Source of the DNA: a virus
Strand: one strand, 5' to 3'
Virus record (IMG/VR): IMGVR_UViG_3300047323_000320
Location: 1-64,000 of that record
Length of the DNA stretch: 64,000 nt
Position numbers and translations under genes: made by a program. This document shows positions 10,318-59,202 of this stretch, piece by piece (position 1 is the first letter of the stretch; the number at the start of each line of letters is the position of its first letter). Under the pieces are notes generated by a model that was not told the origin of the DNA, ran no database searches, and saw only the letters and a program-made list of their open reading frames with translations.

Positions 10318-10539
10318 ATGACGAATTACACCCAGCGCGTTCGCGCCGCGATCTACACCATCCTCACGCTTCTGGCGATGTCACTAACGATGACCGGATG
10401 GTACGCGCATGGCCTGGTGAAACAGACCCCTAGCCCCACGCCAATTGCGAGCGGGGCCTATCAGGGCTGCTCCGAACGACTACGCGATACGCGCCCGCTT
10501 TGCGCGAGTTTCAGCGCGCCCTCGCGCAATGGGAGCTGA
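10318..10539 (+). CDS. Small single-pass membrane protein
   Basis: The 73-residue product has one hydrophobic segment (AIYTILTLLAMSLTMTGWYAHGLV, about residues 11-34), then a Pro/Ser-rich part with two cysteines. The layout recalls an Rz1-like or o-spanin-like protein, but there is no lipobox cysteine. It ends 2 bp before the portal start. Function unknown. Confidence 0.5.
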   Translation: MTNYTQRVRAAIYTILTLLAMSLTMTGWYAHGLVKQTPSPTPIASGAYQGCSERLRDTRPLCASFSAPSRNGS

Positions 10540-10541
10540 GT

Positions 10542-12911
10542 ATGTTTGACGTTGAAAACCCGCCAGAACAGGCGCTGGACCCGCTGGACGATCAGACCGA
10601 CCCGATGACGCCAGAAGAGGCCAAGGCCAAGGCGGAACAGGACCGCCTGGACCGTCTGCAGCTGTTTGAGGCGATGCTGTGCCAGCGGCGCATTGAGGCC
10701 GTGCAGGCGCGCGCCGCGTCCGGCATTGAACGCCAGTGGCTCGATGACATCGACAGCTACCAGGGCCGCGACGCGTCGACGCGTCGTGCGGACATTACCG
10801 CCGCAGCGGCCGCCGGCGGCGCCGTGTCGCCGCGCCGTGGATCGCCCAACGAATCGACGCAGGGCAACCGCTCCACCGTGTTCGTGCAGCTCACGCGGCA
10901 AAAGACCAACGCGGCCGCCGCGCGATGCGCCGACATGCTGTATCCGACCGACGACAAGAACTGGGGCATCAAACCGACGCCGGTTCCCCAGCTCTCGGAT
11001 ATGGTGAAGGGCCGCGCCGGCCAGCAGCAGGTTATGGAGAACGGCCAGGGGCTGATGCACCCGGACAACCCCCAGCAGCCGCTCACGTATTCGGACCTCG
11101 CCGCTGAGAAGATGCAGATTGCCGCGCAGAAAGCGAAGGCAATGCAGGACGAGATTGACGACCAGCTCACCGAGTGCCAGTACAGCTATGAAGGCCGCAA
11201 GGTCATTCAGGACGCGGCCATGCTGGGCACGGGCATTCTGAAGGGGCCGAGTGTCGTCAATCGCACCGCGAAGAAGTGGGCGCCGCAAACCGACGTGGAC
11301 CCACGCACGGGCCAGAAAACGACGGTGCAGGTGCTGCAGATGGTGCAACAGATTCGCCCGCGCAGCTACCGCGTGGACCCGTGGAACTTCTTCCCCGACC
11401 CCGCGTGCGGCGAGAACATCCAGGACGGCGCGTATGTGTACGAGCGCGAATACATGCCGGGGCGTGAACTCGCGAGACTGGCCAAGGTTCCCGGCTTCAA
11501 CTCGGCCGCGATCATGGCGTGCCTGCGCGAAGGCCCGCAGACCGTTCGCGCTGAAGAAGGCGGCTACGACCAGCGCCGTGCGGCCGACACGGCCTACGAT
11601 CGCGCAGGCGCCTACGACGATAAGCGCTTCGAGCTGTGGACGTACACGGGCGACGTGGCGCGCGACGACCTGATTGCTGCAGGCGTGGACGTGCCGGACG
11701 ACGCAGAAGGCTGGCTGACGACGCTCTCAGGCGTGTTCGTCATGTGCAACAACCGCGTTATCAAGGCGATGCTTAACCCGCTCGATGCGGGCGATTTTCC
11801 CTACGACGTGTTCGTATGGGAGCGCGTCGCGCTCTCGCCGTTTGGCGTGGGTATCCCGTACCTGATGCGCTACGCACAGCGCACGCTCAACGCAGCGTGG
11901 CGCGCGATGCTGGACAACATGGCACTGTCGTCCGGCCCGCAGATCGTCATGAACAAGCGCGCCGTCACGCCGGCCGATGGCGACTGGAACCTCACCGCGC
12001 GCAAGTTGTGGTGGATGGAGGACGGCGAGGACGTGCAGAAGGCGTTCTGGGTATTCGAGATTCCCTCTCACCAGAGCGAAATCAGCGCGATCATCGACCT
12101 CGCCCAGCGCTTCGCCGACGAAGAAACCAGCCTGCCGCAGATCGCGCAGGGTGAGCAGGGCACCGCGCCGGAAACAGTCGGCGGCATGTCGATCCTGATG
12201 AACAGCGCGAACACGGTGTTGCGTCGCCTGGTCAAGCAGTTCGATGACATGGTGACGCGCCCGCACATCCGCCGGTATTACGACTGGAACATGGCCTACA
12301 ACCCCAAGGAAGAGATCAAGGGCGACTTTGAGATCGACGCGCGGGGCTCGACGGTGCTGATCGTGCGCGACCAGCAACAGCAGGCCGTCATGCAGCTGTT
12401 CCAGATGGCGGACAGTCCGACGTTCGGTATCTACGTGGACCCGGAAAAGCTGTTCCGCAAGGGTCTCGAAATGAATCACCTGACGCCCGACGACGTTATG
12501 CGGACGGAAGCGGAGATTCAGCAGAAGCAGAAGGAGCTGGCGAACCAGAAAGCGCCGGTCGATCCGCGTGTGCAGGCCGCGCAGGTGCAGGCCCAGGCCC
12601 GTGTGCAGGAAGCCAAGATCAGCGTGCAGGGCGAGCAGGCATATATCGCTACCCAGCAACAGATCGCGCGCGACGATCACGCCGCGCAGATGGGCGAGCT
12701 GCAGATGAAGCGCGAGCTGGCGATCCTGGACTACGCGAACAAGAACCAGATGCAGCTCAATCAGGTGAAGGCCGACCTGGCGATGCTGGCGCTGAAGCTG
12801 AACAGCGATCACGCCATGAAAAACGCCGAGCTGCAGACCCGTTCCTCGCAACAGACCGGCCCCGCCGATGCAGCGACCCCCGTTCAATCACCCGATAAGG
12901 CGCTCCAATGA
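10542..12911 (+). CDS. Portal protein
   Basis: The 789-residue protein forms the dodecameric DNA gate of the head. The start at 10542 (MFDVENPPEQAL) follows GGGAGCTGAGT. The podovirus-type portal is recognised from KTNAAAARCADMLYPTDDKNWGIKPTP, RPRSYRVDPWNFFPDPAC, the helical tunnel region around GEQGTAPETVGGMSILMNSAN, and a long Gln-rich C-terminal helix (QVQAQARVQEAKISVQGEQ) like a barrel extension. It lies after the terminase genes and before capsid genes, as expected, and overlaps the next gene as ATGA. Confidence 0.85.
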   Translation: MFDVENPPEQALDPLDDQTDPMTPEEAKAKAEQDRLDRLQLFEAMLCQRRIEAVQARAASGIERQWLDDIDSYQGRDASTRRADITAAAAAGGAVSPRRGSPNESTQGNRSTVFVQLTRQKTNAAAARCADMLYPTDDKNWGIKPTPVPQLSDMVKGRAGQQQVMENGQGLMHPDNPQQPLTYSDLAAEKMQIAAQKAKAMQDEIDDQLTECQYSYEGRKVIQDAAMLGTGILKGPSVVNRTAKKWAPQTDVDPRTGQKTTVQVLQMVQQIRPRSYRVDPWNFFPDPACGENIQDGAYVYEREYMPGRELARLAKVPGFNSAAIMACLREGPQTVRAEEGGYDQRRAADTAYDRAGAYDDKRFELWTYTGDVARDDLIAAGVDVPDDAEGWLTTLSGVFVMCNNRVIKAMLNPLDAGDFPYDVFVWERVALSPFGVGIPYLMRYAQRTLNAAWRAMLDNMALSSGPQIVMNKRAVTPADGDWNLTARKLWWMEDGEDVQKAFWVFEIPSHQSEISAIIDLAQRFADEETSLPQIAQGEQGTAPETVGGMSILMNSANTVLRRLVKQFDDMVTRPHIRRYYDWNMAYNPKEEIKGDFEIDARGSTVLIVRDQQQQAVMQLFQMADSPTFGIYVDPEKLFRKGLEMNHLTPDDVMRTEAEIQQKQKELANQKAPVDPRVQAAQVQAQARVQEAKISVQGEQAYIATQQQIARDDHAAQMGELQMKRELAILDYANKNQMQLNQVKADLAMLALKLNSDHAMKNAELQTRSSQQTGPADAATPVQSPDKALQ

Positions 12912-16214: not shown

Positions 16215-17564
16215 ATGAAACCAATGCTCCCGCGCCGTGTAGACGGCCAGGGCGAGAAGGGCGAGATTACCGTCAGCCGTGACTGCCAGCGCGCGTATGT
16301 CCATGATGGTCACTCGCGCACCGGCCTGTCGCTGCGCGACTTCACGGGCGTCGGCATGAACCGTGTGCATGACGACATTCTCGTGCATCGCAGCGCGCCG
16401 CAGCGGATCATCGTCTACGGCGACTCGATCACGCAGACGAACTCGTACAGCGGCATTCCTGACGGCTCGCCCCCGCGCACGGAAATGTGGACGCAGGGGT
16501 ATGGCTACGCCGAGCAGAGCATCGCTCGCAGCCTCAAGCCGTACCGCTATATCCGCAACGCGGGCATCGCGGGGCAGACCACGGCACAGATTCTTGCGCG
16601 GCTCCATGACGACGTGCTGGCCTACAAGCCGGATGTCGTCCTGCTGATGGCGGGCACGAACGACATTCTGCAAGGCCAGGTCGACCAGTCATACACAGCC
16701 ATGATGAGCAATATTGAGCTGATGGTGATTGGCATGTTGGAGAACGGCTGCGACGTGATTCTCGCGACGCCGCCAGCGAAAGACAGCGCGCCGGATGAAA
16801 CGCGCATGGCGATCCAGTTTTTCTACATGCTGGCCGACTTTTACAACCTGCCACTGCTCGATACCTACAAGATCACCGTCAACCCGCAGACCGGCATGTA
16901 CAAGGCCGGCTATTCGGCGGACGGCGTGCACCCGAACCCGGTGGCGATCGACGCGATTGCAGTGGAAGGCGCGAAGGTGCTGGCCGAGCCGTGGAAGTAC
17001 ACGAACCCCACGTACCTCGCAGCAGTCTCCGAAGCGACCGTGGGCAACCGGCCGAACCTCATCGGCAATGGCTCGTTCGCGCTGCCGCCGTCGCCGATCG
17101 ACGGCACGACGCTGCAGGCATGGGATGTTGGCGTCGATCACGCGACGTTCACCTGGAATACACCGGCCGCGCTGCCCTACACCGGGAACAACTTCGTTTT
17201 CACGCAGAACGCAGGCGCCGGCGGTGGCCAGTACGGCCTCTATGGCTCCGGTGTCAGTACCGGCTACAAGGAAGGCGATGTGCTGGTGGGCTCGCTGCAC
17301 ATGAAAACCACGGGCCTGACCGTCGCGAGCGCGCAGGGCTTCACGTTTGGCTTCGGCTTCGACAACGGTGATAACGCGCGGCTGACGAATCAGTGGCCAT
17401 ACAACGCCGAGTGGGTTCTGTCGCAGGAAATCATCGTGCCGAAGAACCCCGGCAACATCATCCCGACGCTGTATCTGCAGGATGTCGGCGTGTACACGGT
17501 GAATAACGTGACGCTCTGGAACAAGACGGCGGCCGAGGCAATCTGGAAACCTGGCCAGCTATGA
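16215..17564 (+). CDS. GDSL/SGNH-hydrolase virion protein (esterase/deacetylase)
   Basis: The 449-residue protein contains an SGNH hydrolase domain at residues about 65-250. Block I is VYGDSIT with nucleophile S71, block III is MAGTNDI (N149), and block V is DGVHPN with D236 and H239. The C-terminal about 190 residues are beta-rich (NGSFALPPSPIDGTTLQAWDVG...) like a carbohydrate-binding jelly roll. Phage enzymes of this type remove ester or acetyl groups from capsule or O-antigen during adsorption. Gene order among fibre-like genes fits. Substrate unknown. It overlaps the next gene as ATGA. Confidence 0.85.
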   Translation: MKPMLPRRVDGQGEKGEITVSRDCQRAYVHDGHSRTGLSLRDFTGVGMNRVHDDILVHRSAPQRIIVYGDSITQTNSYSGIPDGSPPRTEMWTQGYGYAEQSIARSLKPYRYIRNAGIAGQTTAQILARLHDDVLAYKPDVVLLMAGTNDILQGQVDQSYTAMMSNIELMVIGMLENGCDVILATPPAKDSAPDETRMAIQFFYMLADFYNLPLLDTYKITVNPQTGMYKAGYSADGVHPNPVAIDAIAVEGAKVLAEPWKYTNPTYLAAVSEATVGNRPNLIGNGSFALPPSPIDGTTLQAWDVGVDHATFTWNTPAALPYTGNNFVFTQNAGAGGGQYGLYGSGVSTGYKEGDVLVGSLHMKTTGLTVASAQGFTFGFGFDNGDNARLTNQWPYNAEWVLSQEIIVPKNPGNIIPTLYLQDVGVYTVNNVTLWNKTAAEAIWKPGQL

Positions 17565-18763: not shown

Positions 18764-18907
18764 ATGGCGACACAGGGTTACGGGACCAGTCCCGGCCGCA
18801 ACTCCGCAAATGCAGTCGGTACGTCGCTCCCACGGTCGGTCACGACCAAGCCCGTGCCGCTGATCCTTTCCGCAATGAAAAAACCTGTTAAGGGGAAGTC
18901 AAAATGA
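18764..18907 (+). CDS. Small basic protein (47 aa) before the capsid gene
   Basis: The protein starts MATQGYGTSPGRNSANAV after ATAGGAGCCAGCG and ends KKPVKGKSK. Its stop overlaps the capsid start (AAAATGA). It is strongly basic and Ser/Thr/Pro-rich. The ribosome site and coupling argue that it is translated. Function unknown. Confidence 0.6.
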   Translation: MATQGYGTSPGRNSANAVGTSLPRSVTTKPVPLILSAMKKPVKGKSK

Positions 18908-19929
18908 CGATGCAAGGCTATTCCACCGCGCCCTCGCGGAACCTGATTCGTGCAGAACAGACGATGCTCAAGCACGCCGAACCGATCATCGTTCTCGGTA
19001 ACTTCGGCACGCAGCAGGAGCAGCCGACGCGCAAGACGGACACGGTTGTGTTCCGCCGCCTGAACCCGTTCAACATGCAGGCGAACGGCACGCCGGGTAT
19101 CACCGCGCAGAACTTCATCCTGGCTGAAGGCACCACGCCGAACGCCAACACCATCGCGTACACGGACGTGTCCGTGACGCTGCAACAGTACGGCGTGCTG
19201 TTCAAGTTCAGCTCGAAAGTCGAACTCATGTATGAGGACGACATTCCGAGCGACATGGCACAGCTGACCGGCGAGCTGCTGGCAGAAGTCGCCGAACTCA
19301 TCCGCTACGGCGTCGTGAAGGCCGGCACCAACGTGCTGTATGCAAACGGCTCGACCCGCGCCGCTGTGAACAGCGTTATCTCGCTGAACCGCCTGCGCCA
19401 GGCCGTGCGCGCGCTGGAAGTGAACCGCGCAAAGATGGTCACGCAGCGCCTTTCCTCGGGCGTGAACTACGGCACGTCGCCGGTGGAACCGGGCTATATC
19501 GTGTTCCTGCACACCGACTGCGAATCGGACGTGCGCAACCTGCCGGGTTTCACCAAGACGGCAGAGTACGCGCAGTTCAAGCCGGTGCATGAGCGTGAAA
19601 TCGGCTCGGTGGAGCGCTTCCGCTTCGTCACGTCGCCGCTGCTCTCGCCGTTCCTCGGCGCGGGCTCGGGCACGCTGAACGGTTGCGTGTCGGTAGGCGC
19701 TACGAACGTGGACGTTTACCCGATGATCGTAATGGCCCAGGAAGCGTGGGGACAGGTCGCGTTGAAGGGCATGGGCGCGGTGAAGCCCACGATCCTTAAG
19801 GCGTCCGAACGGAACCACGCGAACCCGCTGGGCCAGTTCGGCTACGTGGGCGCGAATTTCTGGACTGCAGCAGTTCGTCTGAACGAGAACTGGATGGTCA
19901 GGCTGGAGGTAGGCGTTTCGGCGCTGTAA
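18904..19929 (+). CDS. Major capsid protein, N4-gp56 type
   Basis: The 341-residue protein is assigned to the N4 gp56-like capsid family (HK97 fold). Characteristic segments are KHAEPIIVLGNFGTQQEQPTRKTDTVVFRR near the N-terminus, LQQYGVLFKFSSKVELMYED for the spine, GYIVFLHTDCESDVRNLPGF and the C-terminal MIVMAQEAWGQVALKG. It follows the scaffold gene, and its start has a strong AAGGGGAAG site in ACCTGTTAAGGGGAAGTCAAA. It forms the icosahedral shell. Confidence 0.88.
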   Translation: MTMQGYSTAPSRNLIRAEQTMLKHAEPIIVLGNFGTQQEQPTRKTDTVVFRRLNPFNMQANGTPGITAQNFILAEGTTPNANTIAYTDVSVTLQQYGVLFKFSSKVELMYEDDIPSDMAQLTGELLAEVAELIRYGVVKAGTNVLYANGSTRAAVNSVISLNRLRQAVRALEVNRAKMVTQRLSSGVNYGTSPVEPGYIVFLHTDCESDVRNLPGFTKTAEYAQFKPVHEREIGSVERFRFVTSPLLSPFLGAGSGTLNGCVSVGATNVDVYPMIVMAQEAWGQVALKGMGAVKPTILKASERNHANPLGQFGYVGANFWTAAVRLNENWMVRLEVGVSAL

Positions 19930-31834: not shown

Positions 31835-34800
31835 ATGGCGGACAACTACTGGAACCAGTTCGACAAGCCCGCTTCGCCTGGCGCGGCGGGCGGTGGATCG
31901 GGCGCCGACTTTTGGGACCAGTTTGACGGTCCCGACCGGGGCCTCACGGGCGACGTGAAGGCCGGCCTTGCGCATACCGGCGTGAGCCTGCGCAACATGG
32001 CAGGCGGCGCCGAGAAATTCGTCGGTCGTGCGGCCGACGCCGCCGGCGATGCGTTCAACTCGGACACGTTGCACGGCATCGGCTCGCACCTGATGCAGTC
32101 AGGCAGCGACATGCAGAACGCGGCGGCCGCCAACGAAAACGGCAGCAACACGCTGGGCTTTGAAGGCCAGAACAGCACGCTTCGCCGCAACGCCTATGGC
32201 GTGGCGGACATGGGCGGCCAGATGGCCGTGGTAGGCGGTACGGGCGCGCTCGCGGGCGCGGCCGCTGGCGCCATGTTCGGCGGTGTGGGCGCAATCCCTG
32301 GCGCGATCCTCGGCTGGGGTATCGCCAACATTGCCGCGCTGCCGGCGATGCTGGGTCTCTCGCAGGCGTCGAACACGGCCGACAAGGTGGAAGCGAAGGA
32401 GCTGGCTGACGGCAAGAGCGCGAGCGAAGCGAAGCACGATGCGCTGGCCGCCGGCGCAATGACGGGCGGTGAGACCGCGCTGGGCGCGGCCGCAATCGGC
32501 GCGCTGGGTCCGGTTGCGAAGCTCGTGGGCCGTGCCGCCACGGGCGCCGTGGTGGAAACTGCACTGCGCGCGACGGCGAAAGACGTGGCGCTCGATACGG
32601 CCAAGGCGACCGCGCTGGGTTCGGCGGCCAACGTCGGACAGACGGCCGCGATCGAAGGCACTGAACAGGCGTACGGCGTGGGCGAAGGCCCGACCGCGCA
32701 AGGTCTCATCGACGCGGGTATCCAGGGCGCGGCAATCACGGGTCTCAGCCACGCACCGGGCGCCGCGCTGCGCGCGTCCAGCGCCGGGAAATATACCGGC
32801 CCCTTGCTGGACCCGCAGGCAGACCCCGAAGCGCGACAGAAAGCGGCGCTGGGCGCAATGGCCGTGATTGCCTCGCGCGATCCGGCACTCGCCAAAGACT
32901 TCGGCCTGTACGCGCAGGACCGCATCGCCAAGGGTTTGCCCATTGATCTTGGCGGGTCAGAAACCGTTGAGAATGCAGACGGCAAAACCACGGTCAAACG
33001 CGGCGACGACATTTACCGGGCCTTTGCACGCCAGCAGGAACAGGCGCAGGCCGACGCCGACACCGGCGCGACCCGTACGACGCAGGACGTGTCGCCGACG
33101 TTCGTGCCGACTGGCGACGAGCTGGCGGCCGCCAAGGGTCCGATCCAGGACAACGGCATTCCCGCTGCCCAGGGCCGCGACCATCCCGACATCGTGACGC
33201 CGGACGGTCTCCCGACTGCTGCAAGTGGTACGCCGTCGTGGATGACGGCCGCCGCGAATCCGACGCTGCGCACGCCGGAACCGGAACCCGTGCCGCAATC
33301 GGCCCCGCCGTCGATTACCGACACCATCGGCACGATCATGCACGCGGGCTCGATTGATGAGGCCGTGGCGGGCGCCGAACAGGCGATTGGCGGCAGCGCG
33401 GCGGATATGGTCCATCGGGTCAACGCGATCGGCGAAGCGGCCGGCGTCGTCACGCCCGAGGGCGCCGAAGCGACGCCGAGCGCGGATAACCTGGCGACTG
33501 ATCGCGCGTTTTTCGCGGACCAGGCGGACGCCGCGCAGCGCGACATGCGCCAGCAGGCATTCGACCAGGCACAGGCACAACCGACGCCGGCCGTTCCGGC
33601 GGATGCGTTCGCCGCGCGTGAGGCGCAAGCACGGGCCGAAGCGCAGGCACAGCGCGACGCCGCGCACCAGCAGATGCAGCGCGACCAGCTCGCGCAGCAG
33701 GCCGACACAGCGGGCCAGGTCTCGACCGCGACAGAAGCCGCTGCACCGCCCGCTGAAGCCCCGGCAATGTCGCGGGCCATGCAGGGCTCGCTGGACCGCG
33801 CAGCGGCCCGTATGCAAGGCGGCAAGCAGGTTTCGACGCTCGACCTTGGTATGCTGTCGCAGCATCATCCCGACCCGGCAATCCAGCAGCAGGCCGCGAC
33901 TGCGCTGGAGCTGCGCAAGAACCGCGACATCGTGCAGCCTGTCGCAGAAGCGCCGCAAGGCGTTCGCGCAGCTGAGGCGGCCGAGCCGATCGGCGGCCGT
34001 CCTGGCGTCACGACCATCGACGCCGCCGGCGCGATGCGCCAGGGCGAACCGGGCGCGCAGTTCAGCCCCGCGCGTGGTGCCGTCGATCCGCGCGTGAAGG
34101 CCGTGCAGGACGCGGTAGACCAGCAGGCAGGTGAAGGCAAGGCCGCGCCGGCAGTCGTCCACGTCGACCCGGCGACATTGCCGGAAACACGCACGGCCGC
34201 GAACAACGGTGTAGAAGGCGCAACGACACTATCGAAGAGCGAGGCGGGCCTGTTGCAGAAGGCGGCCGGCATCTTCAATAAAAAGCTCGTGCTGTTCCGG
34301 CAGGAAGGGGGCGTGCCGCCGGATGGCATGGTCCTGAAGTCGGACCCGAAAACCATCTACATCAACGCCGACGCCGCGAGCGCGCATCACCTGGTTGTAT
34401 TCGGGCATGAGCTGGCGCATCAGATGCGCACCGACGCGCCCAAGCTCTTCGACGCGATGCGCAAGTCTGTGCTGAAGGAGGCCGGCAAGGGCGCGCAAAG
34501 CGAGTTCATGCGGTACTACACGGGCAAGGACATGACGCCCGAGCAGATCAAGGCCGCGCTGGCAGACAAGCCCACGGCTGACCGCATGACCGAAGAGTTT
34601 GTGTCGGACCTCGTGGGCAACCGCTTCAGCGAGTACCGTACGTGGCAGCAGATTTTTGCGAACGCAGGCAAGGAAAATCGCGGGCTCGTGTATCGCATCG
34701 CCGACTACATTACGAAGTTCATTGACCATATCCTGGCCAATACTTCATTCAGGAAGTTCGCCACGGACGACATGGTGAACAACCTGAACGGTGTGCGTCA

Positions 34801-37800
34801 GTCGGTACGCCGCGCGCTGGCCGATTACTCTGCGCTGCAGGGCGACAAGGCGATGGCGCACGAAGCCGAGCAGCTGCGCGCACGACAGGCAAACCGCACG
34901 GAAGCGACCGAGCCTAAAAAGCTCGTGGAGCCCGTGGCCAACGATCGTGCGTTCATCGGCAAGGCACCGAGCAAGGCCGCGCCCGCAGCTGTGCCCGAGC
35001 GCGCCGCGCCGGCGGTCCAGGGCTCGCGCGACATCGAGCCGGTCGAACCGCCGAAGAAGTACGGCAAGGCACCCGAAAAAACCGTTCTCGAGCGCTCCCA
35101 GGATTCTGGGAAGCCTGAAGCGCCGGCCGAAGCACCGAAGATGGCCGCGCCGGCCGCAACGCTGGACGAAGCGAAAGCCGCGGAGTCGGCGCGCCGGCAG
35201 GCCGAGATTGTGGCCGAGATTCGCGCCGAGCGGCAGGCGGCCGCCGAGAAGCGCAGCAACGTTGCCAAGGAACGCGAAACGGTAGACCCTGAACGCGATA
35301 GCCTGTGGACCGCGCTGAGCAAGCTGGGCGGACTGAACGCGGATGAAGTGAAAAGCCAGTGGGGCTATGAAGGCTCGCTGGGTAAGAGCGGCCAGCGCAA
35401 TCTGCCTGCACTGTTCGATGGTTTCCGCCGGCTCGTGACCCGCAACGGCATGAGCCTGGAGCGCGCGACCGAAGCGCTGCACGAGCTGGGCTACCTGAAG
35501 GGCGAGGACCAGCACGAGCTGGAGCAGCGTTTCCGGGAAGCCGAGGGCGGCGACCATCATTACACCGATGCTGGGTACGCTAACCAGCATGCGGCCGAAG
35601 AGGCGCAGCGTTATGCTGAGCGCAATCTGACGCAGCAGGACATCGCGGAATCGGGCTATCATGAACAGCCAGAAGAAGCGCAGGCCGCAATCCAGGAGTA
35701 TTTCAATGAACCGCAGGTTGACACCGCCGCCGATGAAGCCGAAGCCGGCCGCCAGCGCGACGCCGACGAAGCCAGCGCCGAGCGCGAGCGAGTCGAACGG
35801 GAAACCGACGCCTACCTCCTTGAGCAGTACAGCCGCCGAGCCAGGGAGCAAGGCGAAGGCGTTCATCGCGAAACTGGAAGCGTCGAATCTGACGCCGGCC
35901 GAGAAGGCGAGCGCAACGCGGACACTCTTGAATCTCCTGCGCGCGCAGGAGAAGAATCGGGCGCGGGGCCGCACGAAGTCGACTGGCAAAACGCCGACTT
36001 CGGACTAACGCCTGAGAGCCAGGCAGAAGGTGAGGCACGCCTGGCGCGCGAAGAAGCTGCGCGCGCCGAGCAGGAAAGCGCCGGCCGCCAGGCCGATCGC
36101 AAGGCAGAAGCCGACGCGCAACGCGACGGTTTCAAACTCACCGGCAGCGACCGCGAGGCCGACGCCAACCCCGACCAGGATGCGCTCTTTTCCACCGTGC
36201 GCGGCAAGCACCTGGGCGACCTCAATGCAGCTGAGGAAGCCGCAGTGCGCAACGTCCTGAACGTCGATAACAAGCCCATCAAGGAAAAGTGGCAGGACTA
36301 CAAAAAGGGCTTGGGCAAGCGGCTTGAGCAGGGCATCGCTCACCGTTACGCCGCACTCAAGGACGTGTCGCCACTCGCGCATATGCAGGCGCGACTGGCG
36401 CGCGGCTCAGACGGCGCGCTGGAAGCACAGCTGATGTACGGCAAGGTCTTTGTCCACGACGACGGCTCCTACGATGTGAAGGTCAACGCGAAGGGCGGCT
36501 TCGCCAATGTCCTGCGCAAGCTGGGCGGCGAACACAATCGCTTCTTCCTGTGGATTGCCGCGCACCGCGCCGACGAACTGACGCAGCAGGAGAAGGAACG
36601 CCTGTTCAAGGGCGCCGACATCGAAGTGCTGAAGAACCTGGACCGGGGCCGTGAGGCGAAATTCGCCGAGGCCCTGAAAGATTACCAGGACTACAACAAG
36701 GCAATCCTCGACATCGCAAGCAAGTCCGGCCTGATTGATGAGGCCACGCGCGATGAAATGGCTTCGCGCATGTACGTGCCGTTCTATCGCGCGCTGCAGG
36801 ACCAGGAAGGCCCCGCCGGCCCGCGCAACGTGTCGGGGCTCGTGAACCAGTATTTCTCCAAGACGCTGAAGGGCGGCACCGAGAAACTGAACGACGATCT
36901 GCTGGCGAACGTCATGCAGAACTGGTCGCACCTGCTGGGGGCTTCTGCCCGCAACCGTGCCGCGCGCACGGCGATGGAAGCGGGCGAGAACCTGGGCATT
37001 GCCGAGCGGGTGAAGAGCCCGGAAGCGGCGACCAAAAACGCTATCAAGGTCATGGTCGACGGCAAGGCCGAGTTCTACGAAGTCCACGATCCGATGTTGC
37101 TGGGCGCCGTGTCGGCGATGTACGCGCAGGTTCCGAAGTGGATGAAGTCGCTATCCACGTTCAAGCACGCGCTTACGTTCGGCGTCACGTCAATGCCTGG
37201 CTTCAAGGTTCGAAACCTGATCCGCGACACAATCACGTCGATCGCCATTTCACCGGACATCAGCGCTAACCCGCTGGAGAACGTGAGGCGCGGCTGGGCG
37301 GGCACGGCGCACGACAGTCAGACGCGTGCCTCCATGCTCGCATCGGGCGGCATTATCCGCTTCGGCAACCTCGCCAAGGACGGGGACGCTGCACGCACGC
37401 ACCGTATGGTTATGGCCGGCGTGCCGCGTGACTCCATCCTGGATTCGCCTGGCCGGTTGAAGGCGTTCGCCGATACCGTGCGGGACAAGTGGGACGCCTA
37501 TGCGGAGCTGGGCGACCGTTCGGAGAACATCAACCGTGCGGCGCTGTATGAGCGGATGATCGCTGAAGGGCACAGCCACATGGAAGCGAGCTTTGCGGCC
37601 CGCGACCTGTTGGACTTCTCTGACGGCGGCACGAACCCGGTTGTGCAGTTTTTCGTCCAGTCGGTGCCGTTTTTGAACGCCCGTATCCAGGGCCTCTTCA
37701 AACTCGGCGAGGCGGCCACGAAGCCTGAGACCCGCAAGCGCTTCTATGCCATTGCTGGCACGGTCGTGATGGCGAGTCTCGCCAACCTGTTGATGTACCA

Positions 37801-38737
37801 GGACGATAAGGACTTCAAGGCCCGCGAGGATTGGGACCGCGATAACTACTGGTGGTTCAAGGTAGGCGGAGAAGCGTTCCGCATTCCGAAGCCGTTTGAG
37901 CTGGGCGCGATCGGCACGACGGCAGAGCGTATGTGGGAACTTCATTCGGACCCGTCGATGACGGGCGGGCGCTTCGCCCATGTGGTCGGCAAGATGATCG
38001 GTAGCCAGTTCAACCTGGACCCTACGCCGCAGATCGTCAAACCGCTCGCCGACGTGTATTCGAACCGGGATTCGTTCACTGAGCGCCCGATCGAAAACCA
38101 GTCCATGCAGAAGATGCAGCCGCAGGACCGTTACAACGTGAACACGTCCATGCTTGCGAGGGCGCTGGGAAGCCTTCCGGTTCCAGAGCCGCAAAAGCTG
38201 ATCGTCAACTCCACGTTTGAACGGCTCTCGCCGGTGCAGTGGGACGCGCTGCTGAAGGGTTACTTCGGCGGCATGGGTCAGTTCATCATCGACCTGTCCG
38301 ACGCCGGCGCGCGGCCGCTGACGGGGCAACCGTCCAGCGGCAAGCCGACGTTCAGCTTCGACAACGCGCTGCAGACCCTCTCCATGGGTTTCCTGAAGCC
38401 CACGGAAGGCCAGCAGACGCGCTACATGACGGACTTTTATGACCAGCTCACGAGTATCGAGCAGGCCCATAACTCATGGCGCGACGCAATCAAGACAGGC
38501 CAGCCGGACAAGGCCCGTCAGATCATGTCTGAGAACAGGCAGCTTATCAGTGCCTATTCGATGGCAGAGACCGTGAAGCGCCGCGAGTCCGCCCTGAACG
38601 TCATGGCCCGTCGCATCCAGAACAGCACTTCCATGGATGACGACACGAAGCAGGCGCGACTGCAGGCGCTCCAGGAGCAGCGCAACCAGCTCGCGCAGCG
38701 CATGGCGCAACGCCTGTCAGATCGCATCAACCAGTAG
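31835..38737 (+). CDS. Giant (2,300-residue) multidomain virion protein with HELAH metallopeptidase-like motif
   Basis: The N-terminal 100 residues are repetitive (WNQFDKP and WDQFDGP). Residues about 125-275 contain several hydrophobic Gly/Ala segments able to insert in membranes. About 400-800 is Ala/Gln coiled coil. HELAH (H858-E859, H862) gives an HExxH zinc-peptidase signature. About 1100-1450 is a charged E/R/A-rich linker. The last 850 residues are a helical globular region (KEKWQDYKKGLGKRLEQGIAHRY..., FGVTSMPGFKVRNLIRDTIT) like the C-termini of giant podovirus and DarB-like proteins. Bcep22-like phages encode an about 4,600-residue relative; this one is half that. Likely role: ejected DNA-entry protein. 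Confidence 0.75.
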   Translation: MADNYWNQFDKPASPGAAGGGSGADFWDQFDGPDRGLTGDVKAGLAHTGVSLRNMAGGAEKFVGRAADAAGDAFNSDTLHGIGSHLMQSGSDMQNAAAANENGSNTLGFEGQNSTLRRNAYGVADMGGQMAVVGGTGALAGAAAGAMFGGVGAIPGAILGWGIANIAALPAMLGLSQASNTADKVEAKELADGKSASEAKHDALAAGAMTGGETALGAAAIGALGPVAKLVGRAATGAVVETALRATAKDVALDTAKATALGSAANVGQTAAIEGTEQAYGVGEGPTAQGLIDAGIQGAAITGLSHAPGAALRASSAGKYTGPLLDPQADPEARQKAALGAMAVIASRDPALAKDFGLYAQDRIAKGLPIDLGGSETVENADGKTTVKRGDDIYRAFARQQEQAQADADTGATRTTQDVSPTFVPTGDELAAAKGPIQDNGIPAAQGRDHPDIVTPDGLPTAASGTPSWMTAAANPTLRTPEPEPVPQSAPPSITDTIGTIMHAGSIDEAVAGAEQAIGGSAADMVHRVNAIGEAAGVVTPEGAEATPSADNLATDRAFFADQADAAQRDMRQQAFDQAQAQPTPAVPADAFAAREAQARAEAQAQRDAAHQQMQRDQLAQQADTAGQVSTATEAAAPPAEAPAMSRAMQGSLDRAAARMQGGKQVSTLDLGMLSQHHPDPAIQQQAATALELRKNRDIVQPVAEAPQGVRAAEAAEPIGGRPGVTTIDAAGAMRQGEPGAQFSPARGAVDPRVKAVQDAVDQQAGEGKAAPAVVHVDPATLPETRTAANNGVEGATTLSKSEAGLLQKAAGIFNKKLVLFRQEGGVPPDGMVLKSDPKTIYINADAASAHHLVVFGHELAHQMRTDAPKLFDAMRKSVLKEAGKGAQSEFMRYYTGKDMTPEQIKAALADKPTADRMTEEFVSDLVGNRFSEYRTWQQIFANAGKENRGLVYRIADYITKFIDHILANTSFRKFATDDMVNNLNGVRQSVRRALADYSALQGDKAMAHEAEQLRARQANRTEATEPKKLVEPVANDRAFIGKAPSKAAPAAVPERAAPAVQGSRDIEPVEPPKKYGKAPEKTVLERSQDSGKPEAPAEAPKMAAPAATLDEAKAAESARRQAEIVAEIRAERQAAAEKRSNVAKERETVDPERDSLWTALSKLGGLNADEVKSQWGYEGSLGKSGQRNLPALFDGFRRLVTRNGMSLERATEALHELGYLKGEDQHELEQRFREAEGGDHHYTDAGYANQHAAEEAQRYAERNLTQQDIAESGYHEQPEEAQAAIQEYFNEPQVDTAADEAEAGRQRDADEASAERERVERETDAYLLEQYSRRAREQGEGVHRETGSVESDAGREGERNADTLESPARAGEESGAGPHEVDWQNADFGLTPESQAEGEARLAREEAARAEQESAGRQADRKAEADAQRDGFKLTGSDREADANPDQDALFSTVRGKHLGDLNAAEEAAVRNVLNVDNKPIKEKWQDYKKGLGKRLEQGIAHRYAALKDVSPLAHMQARLARGSDGALEAQLMYGKVFVHDDGSYDVKVNAKGGFANVLRKLGGEHNRFFLWIAAHRADELTQQEKERLFKGADIEVLKNLDRGREAKFAEALKDYQDYNKAILDIASKSGLIDEATRDEMASRMYVPFYRALQDQEGPAGPRNVSGLVNQYFSKTLKGGTEKLNDDLLANVMQNWSHLLGASARNRAARTAMEAGENLGIAERVKSPEAATKNAIKVMVDGKAEFYEVHDPMLLGAVSAMYAQVPKWMKSLSTFKHALTFGVTSMPGFKVRNLIRDTITSIAISPDISANPLENVRRGWAGTAHDSQTRASMLASGGIIRFGNLAKDGDAARTHRMVMAGVPRDSILDSPGRLKAFADTVRDKWDAYAELGDRSENINRAALYERMIAEGHSHMEASFAARDLLDFSDGGTNPVVQFFVQSVPFLNARIQGLFKLGEAATKPETRKRFYAIAGTVVMASLANLLMYQDDKDFKAREDWDRDNYWWFKVGGEAFRIPKPFELGAIGTTAERMWELHSDPSMTGGRFAHVVGKMIGSQFNLDPTPQIVKPLADVYSNRDSFTERPIENQSMQKMQPQDRYNVNTSMLARALGSLPVPEPQKLIVNSTFERLSPVQWDALLKGYFGGMGQFIIDLSDAGARPLTGQPSSGKPTFSFDNALQTLSMGFLKPTEGQQTRYMTDFYDQLTSIEQAHNSWRDAIKTGQPDKARQIMSENRQLISAYSMAETVKRRESALNVMARRIQNSTSMDDDTKQARLQALQEQRNQLAQRMAQRLSDRINQ
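35661..36008 (+). other. Possible overprinted ORF inside the giant gene
   Basis: A 115-codon frame opens within the charged linker of the giant gene. Its translation has a Pro/Ser/Lys-rich start but a plausible helical end (KAFIAKLEASNLTPAEKASA and TRTLLNLLRAQEKN). There is no clear ribosome site before 35661. It is listed because the host-frame sequence is low complexity here while the second frame is not. Confidence 0.2.
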
Positions 38738-47793: not shown

Positions 47794-48696
47794 TTAATTC
47801 CCTTCCAACAAAAGTGACGCCTGCCCTATCGGGTTCTTCTGCACCTTGATTAGGTCGCCATCAGCGAGCGCCCACGCTTGGATGAACCCTTCCTTCTTCA
47901 ACGAGTCCAGCGCGGTTTTCAGCTGCTGTCTGAATGCAGGAAGGCTCTTTTGCTGACTGCCGCATAACTCTCGGAGCGTAGCCACTGAGTAAGGATAGAT
48001 CGGGTCAGAATGCGTGGCGTAGAAGGCGTGCAGATGTTGGGCCAATGGCTTCAGCTTCATTCGAACCATGTAGTCAATAAGTGTCATGTCTGCGCCAGTT
48101 AGCAACAACGCCATGCGTGGCTCCAGATAGATGTTCCAGGGGAGGTCAGGGCTCCGGTCATCTACGACATCAATCGTTTGGATCAGGTGAGAGCCATATA
48201 TGGGGCGCCATTTCTTCCCTTTGCTCAGCGTCACTTCGCGCTCAACGATCACGGTCCCCTTCAGAAGCCGCCAGTACGATTGGCGCAGGCGCTCATAGTT
48301 CTCGCCGGTGTTCTCCCAATGAAGCCAATCCAAGGCCGCGTTCCCCGTTATCTTCACGATCGTTTGAAGGTCCACCTTCCGCGCCATGTGCACCAGGTTC
48401 ATAAACACGTCGTGATCGTCCTGCCTCAGCTCCGGGCCGGAATAGGTGATGCGAATGTTCTTAAGCGTGGCTACCGGCCGGTTCTCATAGTTTTGACGCG
48501 GCAGCAATTTCGCAGACGACTGGAACAAAGCACTGCGCGCTAGGTCTTTCGATATTCCGCGCAAGTGGTCCGCCCAATTGGCGAGCCGCTTTTCTAGCTC
48601 ACTGTCTAGCGCTTCTAGCTCTTTCTCATCGCTCAACGTTAAGGCGCGCTCAGCCATTTCTCGCACGAGCGCGTTCACATTTCTCTCGTTTCCCAT
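47794..48696 (-). CDS. trfA: TrfA-family plasmid replication initiator
   Basis: The 300-residue protein matches the TrfA family (winged-helix iteron-binding initiator). Characteristic segments are LARSALF (residues 52-58), KNIRITYSGPELRQDDHDVF (about 79-98) and the C-terminal winged-helix region with AQHLHAFYATHSDPIYPYSVATLRELCGS and LKTALDSLKKEGFIQAWAL. Start ATG 48696 is placed after AGGGATTTGGCACTA; the longer reading would start at TTG. It sits directly beside an iteron array. It should open the origin and load the host replisome, so the element can replicate as a plasmid. Confidence 0.85.
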   Translation of the reverse strand: MGNERNVNALVREMAERALTLSDEKELEALDSELEKRLANWADHLRGISKDLARSALFQSSAKLLPRQNYENRPVATLKNIRITYSGPELRQDDHDVFMNLVHMARKVDLQTIVKITGNAALDWLHWENTGENYERLRQSYWRLLKGTVIVEREVTLSKGKKWRPIYGSHLIQTIDVVDDRSPDLPWNIYLEPRMALLLTGADMTLIDYMVRMKLKPLAQHLHAFYATHSDPIYPYSVATLRELCGSQQKSLPAFRQQLKTALDSLKKEGFIQAWALADGDLIKVQKNPIGQASLLLEGN

Positions 48697-48742
48697 TAGT
48701 GCCAAATCCCTGTGGATATCTCCAAGATTGGAGGGTTAACGA

Positions 48743-48824
48743 TACGTCGTTTCGAATATGTCTGACGAAGGATCAAATATGGTTTACGTCGTTTCGAATA
48801 TGGGTTTACGTCGTTTCGAATATG
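48743..48824. repeat. Iteron array: three exact 18-bp units plus one degenerate
   Basis: TACGTCGTTTCGAATATG is exact at 48743-48760, 48785-48802 and 48807-48824. GACGAAGGATCAAATATG (ending at 48781) is a degenerate copy. The ATG ends fall at 48760, 48781, 48802 and 48824, so the units are phased every 21-22 bp, two helical turns, as in RK2-type origins. Each unit contains the palindrome TTCGAA. Confidence 0.88.
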
Positions 48825-48877
48825 TCACATGTTTGAATTCATCAGCGTAAACAGTGCTTTGCCTTGGTTATCAACAG

Positions 48878-48916
48878 CCTATAAGCATTTCTTTAAGCAT
48901 ACTTATAAGCAGTAAA
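48878..48916. other. AT-rich putative unwinding region
   Basis: About 39 bp of AT-rich sequence with repeated TAAGCAT/TAAGCA units (ATAAGCAT, TTTAAGCAT, TTATAAGCAG) lie next to the iterons and between two DnaA-like boxes, the usual place for strand opening. Confidence 0.6.
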
Positions 48917-48951
48917 CCGTCACCGCCCTGTGGACAACTCGAAGCGCGAAG

Positions 48952-49287
48952 TCACAGTATCGGGCCGCGCACATTGGTCCAGCCGATCCATTTGCGCACG
49001 GTCTCAAGTGGCGTGCGCGCGCTCGCGTTGTAGCCTGCGCTACCCTGCCCGATCCACAGCGCTCGGCCTCCCAGCACGTCGCCGGGGTACGTCAGGCACG
49101 CGAAGTAACGCTGGTCCGGCTTGAACTTCCCTTCCTCGTCCAGGTAGAGCATGTCGCCCTGGCTGTCTATCGGGTACGCGCCCTGGATCACACTGCAGTG
49201 CAGCTTCGCGAGAATGTCGTCCAGGCTCGCGTCCGTTTCGACTTCAGTGATTTTCTGAATGAACGGGTCGATCAGATACGCGCGCAT
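48952..49287 (-). CDS. Hypothetical protein (111 aa)
   Basis: MRAYLIDPFIQKITEVETDASLDDI is followed by LHCSVIQGAYPIDSQGDMLYLDEEGKF. This is reminiscent of small early phage proteins with a strand-turn-strand and acidic loop (DUF3846-like). The family call is uncertain. It ends at the edge of the origin and would be transcribed toward it. Confidence 0.55.
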   Translation of the reverse strand: MRAYLIDPFIQKITEVETDASLDDILAKLHCSVIQGAYPIDSQGDMLYLDEEGKFKPDQRYFACLTYPGDVLGGRALWIGQGSAGYNASARTPLETVRKWIGWTNVRGPIL

Positions 49288-49290
49288 CCC

Positions 49291-49488
49291 CTACCCCTTC
49301 GCTTCGTTCACGAAACGCGCAATCGCGCCGATCAAAGCCTCAGCCCGATCGTCGGCCGGCGGCGTCAGGCCCCACTCGCGCATCAGGTCGGCAACGGCCC
49401 TGAACGAGCTATCGACCAGTGCTTTCTCTCCGTCGTTCATCATTTCGTACGCGAAGTGATACGACTTGTCTTGGTGTGTCAGCGGCAT
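49291..49488 (-). CDS. Small hypothetical protein (65 aa)
   Basis: ATG 49488 (MPLTHQDKSYHFAYEMMNDGEKALVDSSFRAV) follows TTTTTGGAGACCTTCAC. The C-terminus is helical (DRAEALIGAIARFVNEAKG). The ribosome site decides this start over 49596. Function unknown. Confidence 0.6.
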   Translation of the reverse strand: MPLTHQDKSYHFAYEMMNDGEKALVDSSFRAVADLMREWGLTPPADDRAEALIGAIARFVNEAKG

Positions 49489-49525
49489 GTGAAGGTCTCC
49501 AAAAAGCAGTTTTGCAGGAAGGGGG

Positions 49526-49912
49526 TCAGCCAAGGTGTTCGCCGCGCTCAATGGCCGCTGCCAGAGCCGCCGCTGCAGGGGCCGTCGACTCAACAATCAC
49601 ATCGGTCATGGTCCGGCCGCCGAACTTCTCGATCAGTTGCAGGTTGTCGTACAGCTCTTCGGGGACACGAATGGTCATCGGAATGCGCTTCGGCTTTTTC
49701 ACCACGTAACGGCGAAAACCGCCCTGAACGGGCTGGACGGGTCCAGGTGGGGTCGACGTAGCCTCAACGACCGCCGTGCCCGTGGCGGGCTGATTTTGGG
49801 CCTCAGAAGCGATTTTTGCAGGCTCGCCCTTCTCTGCTTCCGCAATCCGGCGTGCGGCTTCCTGTTTTTCGGTCGGGCTCGGGGTCATGGGGGCGGGTTT
49901 TCTCGTACTCAT
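49526..49912 (-). CDS. Ribbon-helix-helix DNA-binding protein, likely ParA partner (centromere-binding)
   Basis: The 128-residue protein has a disordered N-terminal about 70 residues, a basic patch (YVVKKPKRIPMTIRVPEELYDNLQLIEKFGGRTMTDVIVEST, about residues 73-112) with the ribbon-helix-helix pattern (strand MTIRVP, then helices), and an Ala-rich end. A small RHH gene downstream of a short ParA is the type Ib partition layout. It overlaps parA by 4 bp (ATGA). It would bind parS and also repress the operon. Confidence 0.75.
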   Translation of the reverse strand: MSTRKPAPMTPSPTEKQEAARRIAEAEKGEPAKIASEAQNQPATGTAVVEATSTPPGPVQPVQGGFRRYVVKKPKRIPMTIRVPEELYDNLQLIEKFGGRTMTDVIVESTAPAAAALAAAIERGEHLG

Positions 49913-50547
49913 GCAAATAGCTCCTCAAACAGGGCGTTCAGGTTTTGTGTGGCCTTCCCCTCGGTGTCTGCCTCGGGCACAGCAAGGCCGCGCGTAATGG
50001 CGTCACGAAACACGCCCCGACCGACGAGCGCCGTTTCGCACGGCTGAAAGTATGCCATGTAGTTGTTAAGGGCAGCACGCGTGCTGCGCACATCTATGCT
50101 GTTCTTGTGATACGGCACGTTGTTCAGAACGATGCGCGACCGGAAGGCGATGCCGGCTGACTTGAAACTGTCGAGCATGGCGGTCATGTCGTCCAGCGCC
50201 CACACGTCGAACTGGCTGGGCGCCATGGGAACCACAAGGTCATCGGCAAATGCGAGCGCGTGGGCGGCTTCGGGGCCACGCTTCCCGCCGACATCCACTA
50301 TAACCACATCGCTTTCAGTGCGCGCTGCTTCAAGGTCGCCCGTAATGTCGCCTGTGCCGACGCGGTAATGAACGCGTGGCAATACGCCCAGGTTGTCGCG
50401 CAGCAGGGACCACTTATGCGCGCTTCTCTGCCTGTCTGCATCGAATAGCGTAACCGTGCGCTTCCGTGCGGAGAACATGACGGCAAGGTTGGTAGACACG
50501 GTGCTTTTCCCCACGCCACCTTTCGGGTTGGCCACAACGATGAACAT
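49909..50547 (-). CDS. parA: ParA-family partition ATPase (type Ib, short)
   Basis: The 212-residue protein begins MFIVVANPKGGVGKST with the deviant Walker A (KGGVGKST, residues 9-16), continues to TLFDADRQRSAHKW (Walker A' region) and DVVIVDVGGKRGPEAAHALAFADDLVVPM (Walker B). There is no N-terminal helix-turn-helix, which marks the short type Ib form. The start has AGGAGGAAGT. It segregates low-copy DNA by moving over the nucleoid. With the RHH gene and the upstream repeats it makes a par operon. Confidence 0.88.
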   Translation of the reverse strand: MFIVVANPKGGVGKSTVSTNLAVMFSARKRTVTLFDADRQRSAHKWSLLRDNLGVLPRVHYRVGTGDITGDLEAARTESDVVIVDVGGKRGPEAAHALAFADDLVVPMAPSQFDVWALDDMTAMLDSFKSAGIAFRSRIVLNNVPYHKNSIDVRSTRAALNNYMAYFQPCETALVGRGVFRDAITRGLAVPEADTEGKATQNLNALFEELFA

Positions 50548-50554
50548 ACTTCCT

Positions 50555-50591
50555 CCTGTTTAGGCGCCCATAGTAGCGTGCCCTTAACAGG
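50555..50591. promoter_or_regulatory. Split CTGTTTAGG/CCCTTAACAG hairpin before parA
   Basis: CCTGTTTAGG (50555-50564) and CCTTAACAGG (50582-50591) are arms of an imperfect 10-bp palindrome with 17 bp between. The halves match the CTGTTTAGGA/CCCTTAACA element found elsewhere. It lies 7 bp before the parA start. Confidence 0.5.
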
Positions 50592-50827
50592 ATGAACAAG
50601 TGGATTGTGTGCGGTCGCGCTCGTTGGGCGTATGTATTGCTGTACGTATGTACGTAAGGAAGGGGAAAGGTATGGCGTCACGGCCCCCTGGCCATGTCAG
50701 CAGGGGGCCGTGACTAGGCTGCCACGCTTGCTATTTAACACCGGCGGCGAGCCGCTACCGGCGGGCGCTTGTGAGCGGGCTTTGTGTCGGGGCCTGCCTC
50801 GGGCCCGTGGGTGCGCCCCGTGGGTAA
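50592..50827. other. Upstream par region: GTAYGTA repeats and a 14-bp perfect inverted repeat
   Basis: No gene. TACGTATGTACGTA (50643-50656) with GTATGTAT nearby, then GTCACGGCCCCCTG (50677-50690), a 10-nt loop and CAGGGGGCCGTGAC (50701-50714). GC-rich stems fill the rest. The location upstream of parA is where a parS centromere and the par promoter would be expected. Confidence 0.5.
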
Positions 50828-57568: not shown

Positions 57569-57885
57569 GGTTTTCCTCGGGAATGGGTCAGACTCGGCGG
57601 CCGTGGACGGCGCGCTCGTAGAAATACAGGAAGGATTTGTTGCGGATTTGGACGTGCATTTTATGTAGGCTCTCAGGTTCAACGGGTTCAACAGTTTCAA
57701 CACAACTACAAGCAGTCCTAAACAGACGGTGGCGCCGGTTTCCCGCTTTTGACCACGGCCGCCGCTGGGGTGAAGAGCCCCAGCACGGGCAGCGGCAGGG
57801 CGGGAACCGACAGAAGTGGGCGCGCCCCATCGTTGGTGGCGGGTAGAGGCCCGCTCGCGCCCACTTCTTTCGGTTCCTGCAGTCC

Positions 57886-57991
57886 TGAGAATCTTCAGGT
57901 CACAGCGCAGCGTGGCCTGTGCGTGACGTGAGAGGTATCAGTGTTCACGGTTTAGGACTTACGTTCGCGCGCCGTGACCTGAAGATTCTCA
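57886..57991. repeat. 18-bp inverted repeat in the switch region
   Basis: TGAGAATCTTCAGGTCAC (57886-57903) and its exact complement GTGACCTGAAGATTCTCA (57974-57991) are separated by 70 bp. They flank a GC-rich segment with GTTTAGGACTT. They could be paired operators that loop, or ends of an excised element. Confidence 0.7.
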
Positions 57992-57995
57992 AGCG

Positions 57996-58012
57996 ATTGA
58001 GCTTTTCTCAAT
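57996..58012 (-). promoter_or_regulatory. Repressor-type operator O3 at the leftward early promoter
   Basis: ATTGAGCTTTTCTCAAT is an imperfect palindrome of the family. Read leftward, TAGAAT (5/6 to a -10 box) immediately overlaps its start, so binding would block the operon promoter. Confidence 0.65.
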
Positions 58013-58022
58013 TCTACCACCT

Positions 58023-58059
58023 AAAAATTGCCCCGAACCGTTCCTGCGAATCGGGGCAA
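58023..58059 (-). terminator. Terminator of the repressor transcript
   Basis: Read leftward TTGCCCCGA ... TCGGGGCAA followed by TTTTTAG is a 9-bp stem with a T run, ending repressor transcription before operator O3. Confidence 0.85.
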
Positions 58060-58168
58060 GTGGTGTGATAGGAATGTAGCCGGTGTTTTTTCCGACCGCA
58101 AGGGGATTTCGTAAATATTCTTACGAACTGATACAAACCTGTCCTTGCATGCTGTTAAGGGGCAGTGT

Positions 58169-58786
58169 TTACCCCCGCTTGAACCAGTCGATTGTAGTGG
58201 CAGATTTGACCGGAATATCCACCAGCTGCCGCTTGGACAAGGGGTGCGTCAGTGTGTACAGGCCGTCCGCTGTGCCCCGTGACAGCTCGCCGAACAGGGG
58301 TTTATCCTCATCGACGTAGGCCACGACAATCTGACCGACGCAGTGATAAAGCTCCAGCGCGCCGAAGCTCACGAAGCAGACCATGTGCGACCAGTACGAA
58401 TTGGGAAAATCGGTACTTCTTACCCTGAACGCCCAGGAATCGCTGGGCAGGCCAGGCGGTGCGGGAATCATCGCGAATGGCTGCGGCGCGGGGACCAGCT
58501 GGCAGTCGTCCATCGCCAGGCAGGTGAGCGCAATGAGCGGACTTTCCAGCGTCGGCGGGAAGCCCCAGCGCGCCATGATTTCAGCGGTCGGGACCTTGAT
58601 GATGTCGCTTAACTTCTTGAGTTCATTCAGGTTTAGCTTGCGCTCGCCCTTCAGCGTGTAGCTCAGCGTCGCCGGGTCAATCTTCATCAATGCCGATACA
58701 TCCTTCTGCGAAAGATTGCGCCGCCTGAACTGCTCCAGTATCCAGACCCTATCGGGCGCCCCCGGTTTTTTCGGCTCGTTACTCAT
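58169..58786 (-). CDS. CI-like phage repressor
   Basis: ATG 58786 (MSNEPKKPGAPDRVWILEQF) follows AAAAGGGGCTTCAAC, deciding it over the longer reading to 58816. The 205-residue protein has an HTH (residues about 24-48, LSQKDVSALMKIDPATLSYTLKG) and a C-terminal region resembling LexA/CI dimerisation domains (WAFRVRSTDF, FVSFGALELYHCVGQIVVAYVDEDKPLFGELSR). The usual Ser-Lys autocleavage pair is not seen (RSTDF and LFGEL). It should hold the lysogenic state; the four 17-bp palindromes are its likely sites. Confidence 0.8.
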   Translation of the reverse strand: MSNEPKKPGAPDRVWILEQFRRRNLSQKDVSALMKIDPATLSYTLKGERKLNLNELKKLSDIIKVPTAEIMARWGFPPTLESPLIALTCLAMDDCQLVPAPQPFAMIPAPPGLPSDSWAFRVRSTDFPNSYWSHMVCFVSFGALELYHCVGQIVVAYVDEDKPLFGELSRGTADGLYTLTHPLSKRQLVDIPVKSATTIDWFKRG

Positions 58787-58843
58787 GTTGAAGCCCCTTT
58801 TGCATAGTAATGACATTGTGTAATATCGACGCCTTAACGACCG

Positions 58844-58899: not shown

Positions 58900-59202
58900 A
58901 TGACAAAGACCAAACCCAAAGCTGGCAAGCGTTCGGTGCCGAACACTGCCGCACAATCGGCGCGTCGGGTGAACGACGCCGAACCCGCGCATTCGATCAT
59001 CAGAAAGCTCGGCGGCGTTCGCGCGCTGGCTGCAGCGGTAGGCGTGTCGCCGGCGGCGGTGACGCGCTGGCAGACCCACAAGACGGACGCGGACAGAAAT
59101 GGCTGCGACGGTGTGATCCCGGAATTCCGGCGCGCGGCGGTGATTGCGGCCGGACGCGCGATGCGTCGGCGCGTGACCAAGGCTGAATTCATCAAGTCGT
59201 AA
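58900..59202 (+). CDS. Cro-like HTH regulator
   Basis: The 100-residue protein has a basic N-terminal tail, and HSIIRKLGGVRALAAAVGVSPAAVTRWQTH (about residues 31-60) is a classical HTH of the Cro/YdaS type. The C-terminus is basic (RRAAVIAAGRAMRRRVTKAEFIKS). It starts right after CCCTTAACA and is divergent from the repressor, with operator O4 between, so it is the natural antagonist that turns off the repressor in lytic growth. Confidence 0.8.
   Translation: MTKTKPKAGKRSVPNTAAQSARRVNDAEPAHSIIRKLGGVRALAAAVGVSPAAVTRWQTHKTDADRNGCDGVIPEFRRAAVIAAGRAMRRRVTKAEFIKS

Follow-up and report, generated by a model that had tools for sequence, protein, structure and literature searches.

A TrfA-type plasmid replicon with partition genes in a podovirus-like phage genome, probably that of a phage-plasmid

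The replication and partition block

The DNA analysed here (the window, 64,000 nt) comprises bases 1-64000 of a 64,483-bp record of the IMG/VR virus collection (IMGVR_UViG_3300047323_000320, hereafter G0). In a genome that also encodes virion proteins, it carries a block made up of a TrfA-family replication initiator gene, an origin-like segment (oriV), a gene for a short ParA partition ATPase and a gene for its putative ribbon-helix-helix (RHH) partner, so that the initial annotation of a podovirus-like genome with a plasmid replication and partition block was confirmed. The features of the block are as follows:

47794-48705, minus strand: trfA, plasmid replication initiator (PF07042, plasmid homology, tree and AlphaFold model)
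48711-48719, minus strand: DnaA-box-like ATATCCACA on the iteron side, one mismatch to TTATCCACA
48739-48824, minus strand: three 22-bp iterons of the CATATTCGAAACGACGTAAACC type at 48803-48824, 48781-48802 and 48739-48760 (repeat search)
48875-48920, minus strand: AT-rich region with three repeats of about 12 bp, GCTTATAAGTAT, GCTTAAAGAAAT and GCTTATAGGCTG; putative unwinding element
48929-48937, minus strand: DnaA-box-like TTGTCCACA on the distal side, one mismatch to TTATCCACA
48952-49287, minus strand: small open reading frame (ORF) between the partition genes and oriV, DUF3846-like (PF12957, 25.1 bits, below the cut-off of 27.5)
49526-49912, minus strand: putative RHH centromere-binding partner, ParG/Arc-like (phrog_6506, model and alignment)
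49909-50547, minus strand: parA, short ParA/ParF-type partition ATPase (PF01656, 53.7 bits; phrog_164, 111 bits)
50677-50714, no strand assigned: perfect 14-bp inverted repeat upstream of parA (repeat search)

The trfA product, for which the ATG at 48696 is a likelier start codon than the TTG at 48705, matches the Pfam TrfA profile (PF07042) with 79.8 bits at a cut-off of 22, bearing out its initial assignment. Its closest plasmid relatives are the TrfA proteins of Burkholderia glumae plasmids (38-41% identity), and in a phylogenetic tree it groups with the TrfA of the related viral genome G002 (support 96/94), the two being joined to the TrfA of the B. glumae plasmid p79s4p (98/99). A sequence search against solved structures gave no significant match; an AlphaFold model (12 homologues; mean pLDDT 74) matches RctB, the TrfA-DNA entry 9a0w and RepE in the PDB. 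RctB, TrfA and RepE are iteron-binding replication initiators. Among 50,697 catalogued phage records, no match to the G0 protein was found at E 1e-5, nor to two further TrfA queries at E 0.01. The protein belongs to phrog_26900, listed with 'unknown function' in PHROGs, as do the TrfA proteins of G002 and of a third viral genome, G063 (matching genes at 47794-48705 of the window, L095:13681-14667 and L133:9938-10885), which makes this family a candidate for annotation as a replication initiator of the TrfA type.

Read on the coding strand toward trfA, the origin-like segment consists of a DnaA-like box, the AT-rich repeats, the three iterons and a second DnaA-like box, an order that follows the origin logic of iterons, DnaA boxes and AT-rich 13-mers reviewed for plasmid RK2 (PMC5043065). 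Two of the iterons are identical and the third, separated from the second by a degenerate stretch, matches at 82%; their 22-bp spacing keeps them in helical phase. No such array was expected in 100 shuffles, and the periodicity of 22/22 compares with a shuffle maximum of 16. Tandem Repeats Finder independently reported both the iteron array (48743-48824) and the AT repeats (48880-48911), which are of the TTAAAG-repeat type and rank among the 0.3% of the genome richest in AT at the 60-bp scale. The iteron origin seen in the initial annotation is thus upheld by repeats above chance and by a second program.

The ParA protein (212 aa, with a Walker motif near residue 9 and, as in type Ib partition systems, no N-terminal helix-turn-helix, HTH) also matches AAA_31, and its PDB matches are to ParF/ParA, indicating an ATPase of the ParF/MipZ-like type. 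Its gene overlaps that of the partner by 4 bp. The partner weakly resembles the Arc-like phrog_6506 (E 5e-4), aligns with plasmid ParG and with the partner of another genome (G052), and in a low-confidence model (pLDDT 51) shows the strand-helix-helix order of RHH proteins; its sequence had no significant match among solved structures. We consider it a probable, not a proven, RHH centromere-binding protein, so that the ParA half of the initially proposed ParA-RHH pair stands and the RHH half is weaker. The inverted repeat at 50677-50714 is a possible, though unproven, operator or centromere; an apparent second copy of it proved to be merely its own inverted repeat.

Phage genes, circular closure and relatives

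The packaging and virion set is complete (terminase, portal, capsid and tail), and lysis genes including an endolysin are present, along with CI-like and Cro-like genes, all in agreement with the initial annotation:

7582-9063, plus strand: terminase large subunit (phrog_2, phrog_5653)
10500-12911, plus strand: portal or head-tail adaptor (phrog_332, phrog_1216)
18904-19929, plus strand: major capsid protein of the N4-gp56 family (TIGR04387, 250.8 bits; phrog_1357)
58169-58816, minus strand: CI-like HTH repressor (PF01381, 30.4 bits), with a homologue in G002
58900-59202, plus strand: Cro-like divergent regulator (P22_Cro, E 3e-6, below the cut-off)

The two ends of the G0 record are direct repeats of 110 bp that differ at one position. 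Joining the record at this repeat gives a circle of 64,373 bp in which a 193-codon open frame, about 51% identical to its homologue in G002, runs continuously across the junction, and the record is therefore very probably a complete genome that was cut within a gene. Since the genome thus appears complete, the absence of an integrase could be tested: profiles for tyrosine recombinases (PF00589), serine recombinases (PF00239), the rve transposase (PF00665) and protelomerases (PF16684), all of which gave matches in control genomes, had no match in the whole circular record. The initial annotation had recognised no integrase within the window, and none was found in the remaining 483 bp either. 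The negative protelomerase search also led us to reject a linear, N15-type plasmid form. Neither a tRNA gene that could mark an attachment site nor any Rfam element was detected in G0.

Examining the relative G002 (IMG/VR 3300044831_000007; 66,517 bp, with a 146-bp end repeat at 95% and 55/70 genes in common with G0) revealed a trfA-oriV segment at the syntenic interval, between the genes for the polymerase and the single-stranded DNA-binding protein (SSB), encoding a TrfA of 57% identity. Its origin contains exact TTATCCACA boxes at the positions matching both DnaA-like boxes of G0, GCTTAAAG repeats and four 22-bp iterons, followed by trfA. The alignment of the two origins is restricted to 62 nt of the DnaA-box/AT segment (77% identity); the iterons differ in sequence between the genomes, while within each they are perfect or near-perfect repeats. 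Because the layout was kept while the iteron sequences changed, this comparison suggests that TrfA and its binding sites co-evolve, and repeats without function would not readily account for such a pattern. The partition pair is strongly diverged, with the ParA of G002 only 25% identical to that of G0. Directly upstream of parA, at 36386-36488 (L095:16386-16488), G002 carries an array of TCACATCA/TCACCTCA-type repeats that exceeds shuffled sequences and is a candidate centromere.

A further relative that is closer by its capsid, G001 (63,256 bp, 132-bp end repeat), has a capsid protein 85% identical to that of G0 and shares 41/70 genes. It retains the polymerase, SSB, nuclease and helicase, and no TrfA, ParA or integrase was found in it. 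A CI-like repressor was likewise not detected in G001, either as a BLAST homologue or as a CI-type Pfam match among the ORFs at the repressor locus, and its minus-strand ORFs between polymerase and SSB have no homologue shared with G0 or G002. Because G001 keeps the replisome in the absence of TrfA, this lineage may not require TrfA for its core lytic replisome. The contrast would favour a role in the prophage state and is suggestive only.

Next to the CI-like gene of G0, the non-coding interval 57704-58168 holds two long inverted repeats, one with 25-nt arms at 92% and one with 23-nt arms at 96% and a 60-nt loop, the first of which folds at about -67 kcal/mol. It has no Rfam match; next to its own CI-like gene, G002 likewise has a hairpin with the core AGAAGTGGGC/GCCCACTTCT, and the interval is possibly a regulatory RNA or an operator.

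Plasmid maintenance and competing explanations

We consider it likely that G0 is a temperate, podovirus-like phage with an N4-gp56-family capsid whose prophage is kept as a low-copy, TrfA-driven plasmid, because its genome forms a complete circle without a detectable integrase and combines a TrfA/iteron/DnaA-box origin, conserved in G002 and in Burkholderia plasmids, with a ParA/RHH-like pair. Replication, copy number, partition and lysogeny are aspects that we infer from sequence. In the repressed state, TrfA monomers would bind the 22-bp iterons adjoining their own gene. Acting jointly with host DnaA bound to the boxes on either side, they would open the DNA at the TTAAAG repeats and load the helicase of the host, after which the genome would replicate as a low-copy circle. 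ParA and its RHH-like partner, from an operon that is probably autoregulated, would segregate the copies as daughter cells form. Relief of the CI-like repression would hand lytic replication to proteins that the phage itself encodes, namely its primase-helicase, polymerase, SSB and nuclease.

Several points weigh against this interpretation. Both DnaA boxes of G0 carry one mismatch each; centromere repeats upstream of parA are not above chance in G0, unlike in G002; the RHH assignment of the partner is weak; G0 may encode a recombinase from an unrecognised family; and the contrast with G001, taken as a control, is only suggestive. In addition, the circular assembly fits an extrachromosomal circle in lysogens, yet it may derive from virion DNA.

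The alternative that survives best, although we regard it as unlikely, is that TrfA and oriV form a lytic-phase origin for theta replication after infection, with ParA and its partner acting in regulation or genome positioning and not in keeping the prophage. The block does lie inside the early minus-strand gene cluster, and the phage's own polymerase and primase could act once TrfA had opened the DNA. However, the retention of the lytic replication genes in G001 without TrfA or ParA argues otherwise, a partition cassette would bring little benefit to a phage that only grows lytically, and G0 and G002 both have a CI-like repressor alongside the block.

Less probable still is an integrating prophage, with homologous recombination or a recombinase of an unrecognised kind as its route into the chromosome, in which the replication and partition genes would be passengers or a backup. 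Such an explanation draws on the integration of Bcep22-type phages, on the tyrosine integrases of G012 and G030, which are more distantly related by capsid, and on a Paraburkholderia element (L085) that lies within a 722-kb scaffold with recombinases nearby. It is difficult to reconcile with a complete circle that has no integrase, resolvase, rve or protelomerase match, no tRNA gene as a possible attachment site and no host flanks.

We give very little credence to an assembly chimera of phage and plasmid: no cultured isolate stands behind the record, which comes from a virus collection, and the replication and partition genes are plasmid-related, but the genome closes as a circle and G002 has the homologous trfA-oriV at the same position between polymerase and SSB. 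A decaying, non-functional relic of past recombination with a plasmid, to which the degenerate iteron and the imperfect DnaA boxes might point, is just as improbable, given that trfA and parA are open and full-length and that the origin layout is kept with changed yet perfect or near-perfect iterons in both phages, suggestive of co-evolution with the initiator.

Wider occurrence and comparison with known systems

A TrfA relative is also encoded by 14 environmental viral contigs, many of which have repeats of period 20-24 upstream of trfA; 8/14 (24-116 kb) match a terminase large subunit, one of them weakly, and the set may include plasmids. One of the genomes concerned, G063 (IMG/VR 3300049749_000001; L142-L145), is a circular genome of 61.6 kb with a 127-bp exact end repeat, a distant relative of phage BcepIL02 that carries TrfA (28%) and ParA (30%), with no iterons seen upstream of its trfA. 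Recurrent capture of TrfA by phages is plausible, not proven. We put at about even the chances of a broader proposal, in which TrfA phage-plasmids would be an overlooked recurrent class, with unrelated tailed phages (G0/G002, G063 and several TerL contigs of 50-116 kb) having repeatedly taken up TrfA replicons and escaped incompatibility by changing their iterons and partition cassettes, and phrog_26900 would be their initiator.

With respect to phage type, megablast found no close relative of G0 among phages, and by capsid and portal the named relatives nearest to it are the environmental genome MW202426, Pseudoalteromonas phage Y3 and Stenotrophomonas phage StenR_269. The Bcep22-like (Lessievirus) label first given to G0 was rejected, as only 3/70 genes match BcepIL02 and terminase, portal and capsid are not among them; G063 is the one Bcep22-related case that matches that idea. 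Lessieviruses (Bcep22, BcepIL02, JC1) resemble G0 in size, in a long DarB-like protein and in a CI-like repressor, and unlike G0 they encode a serine or tyrosine recombinase. The accompanying statement that Bcep22 phages form no stable lysogens was roughly right for the earlier members, whose lysogens are unstable, but phages of this group carry a recombinase gene, and the integration site of JC1 is rimO (PMC9144972). Among its structural genes G0 also has one for a protein with a GDSL/SGNH-type lipase-esterase domain (16215-17564), and it encodes a 2300-aa long virion-type protein (31835-38737), the last ~850 residues of which are 39-56% conserved in relatives and which has a homologue in the 722-kb Paraburkholderia silviterrae scaffold. 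The host of G0 probably belongs to the Burkholderiales, because of the affinities of its TrfA and because the Paraburkholderia element shares this long virion protein at 48%.

Like G0, the Burkholderia plasmids p79s4p, bglu_3p (B. glumae) and pTY921B (B. cenocepacia) carry 21-22-bp iterons upstream of a homologous trfA. The latter two have ATTAAAGAAG (TTAAAG-type) AT repeats as in G0, and p79s4p and pTY921B show the same order of parA, small partner, iterons and trfA. These two plasmids, unlike G0, bear transfer, metal-resistance or transposon genes, and they were rejected as phage-plasmids, their annotations showing no virion genes. The IncP plasmid RK2 likewise has a TrfA-family/iteron replicon. 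The iteron sequences of the Burkholderia plasmids and RK2 differ from that of G0, and the compared TrfA plasmids have 7-12 iterons versus 3-4 in G0 and G002.

A well-studied type of plasmid replicon is thus joined to a phage lineage that is not listed among the phage-plasmids. G0 and G002 form a natural pair, with the initiator gene kept and the iterons and partition genes altered, on which iteron specificity and plasmid incompatibility between phages can be tested directly, and the function suggested for phrog_26900 offers a means of finding further phages of this kind. Phage-plasmids are already known as a class, and two recent papers on them (PMC12977533, PMC10879196) do not mention TrfA. 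The P1, N15, SSU5 and other groups combine, as G0 does, virion genes with plasmid replication and partition genes and lack chromosomal integration machinery; G0 differs from the P1, N15 and SSU5 groups in its TrfA initiator and its N4-gp56 podovirus-like head, and a TrfA replicon in a lineage with this capsid is a new combination.

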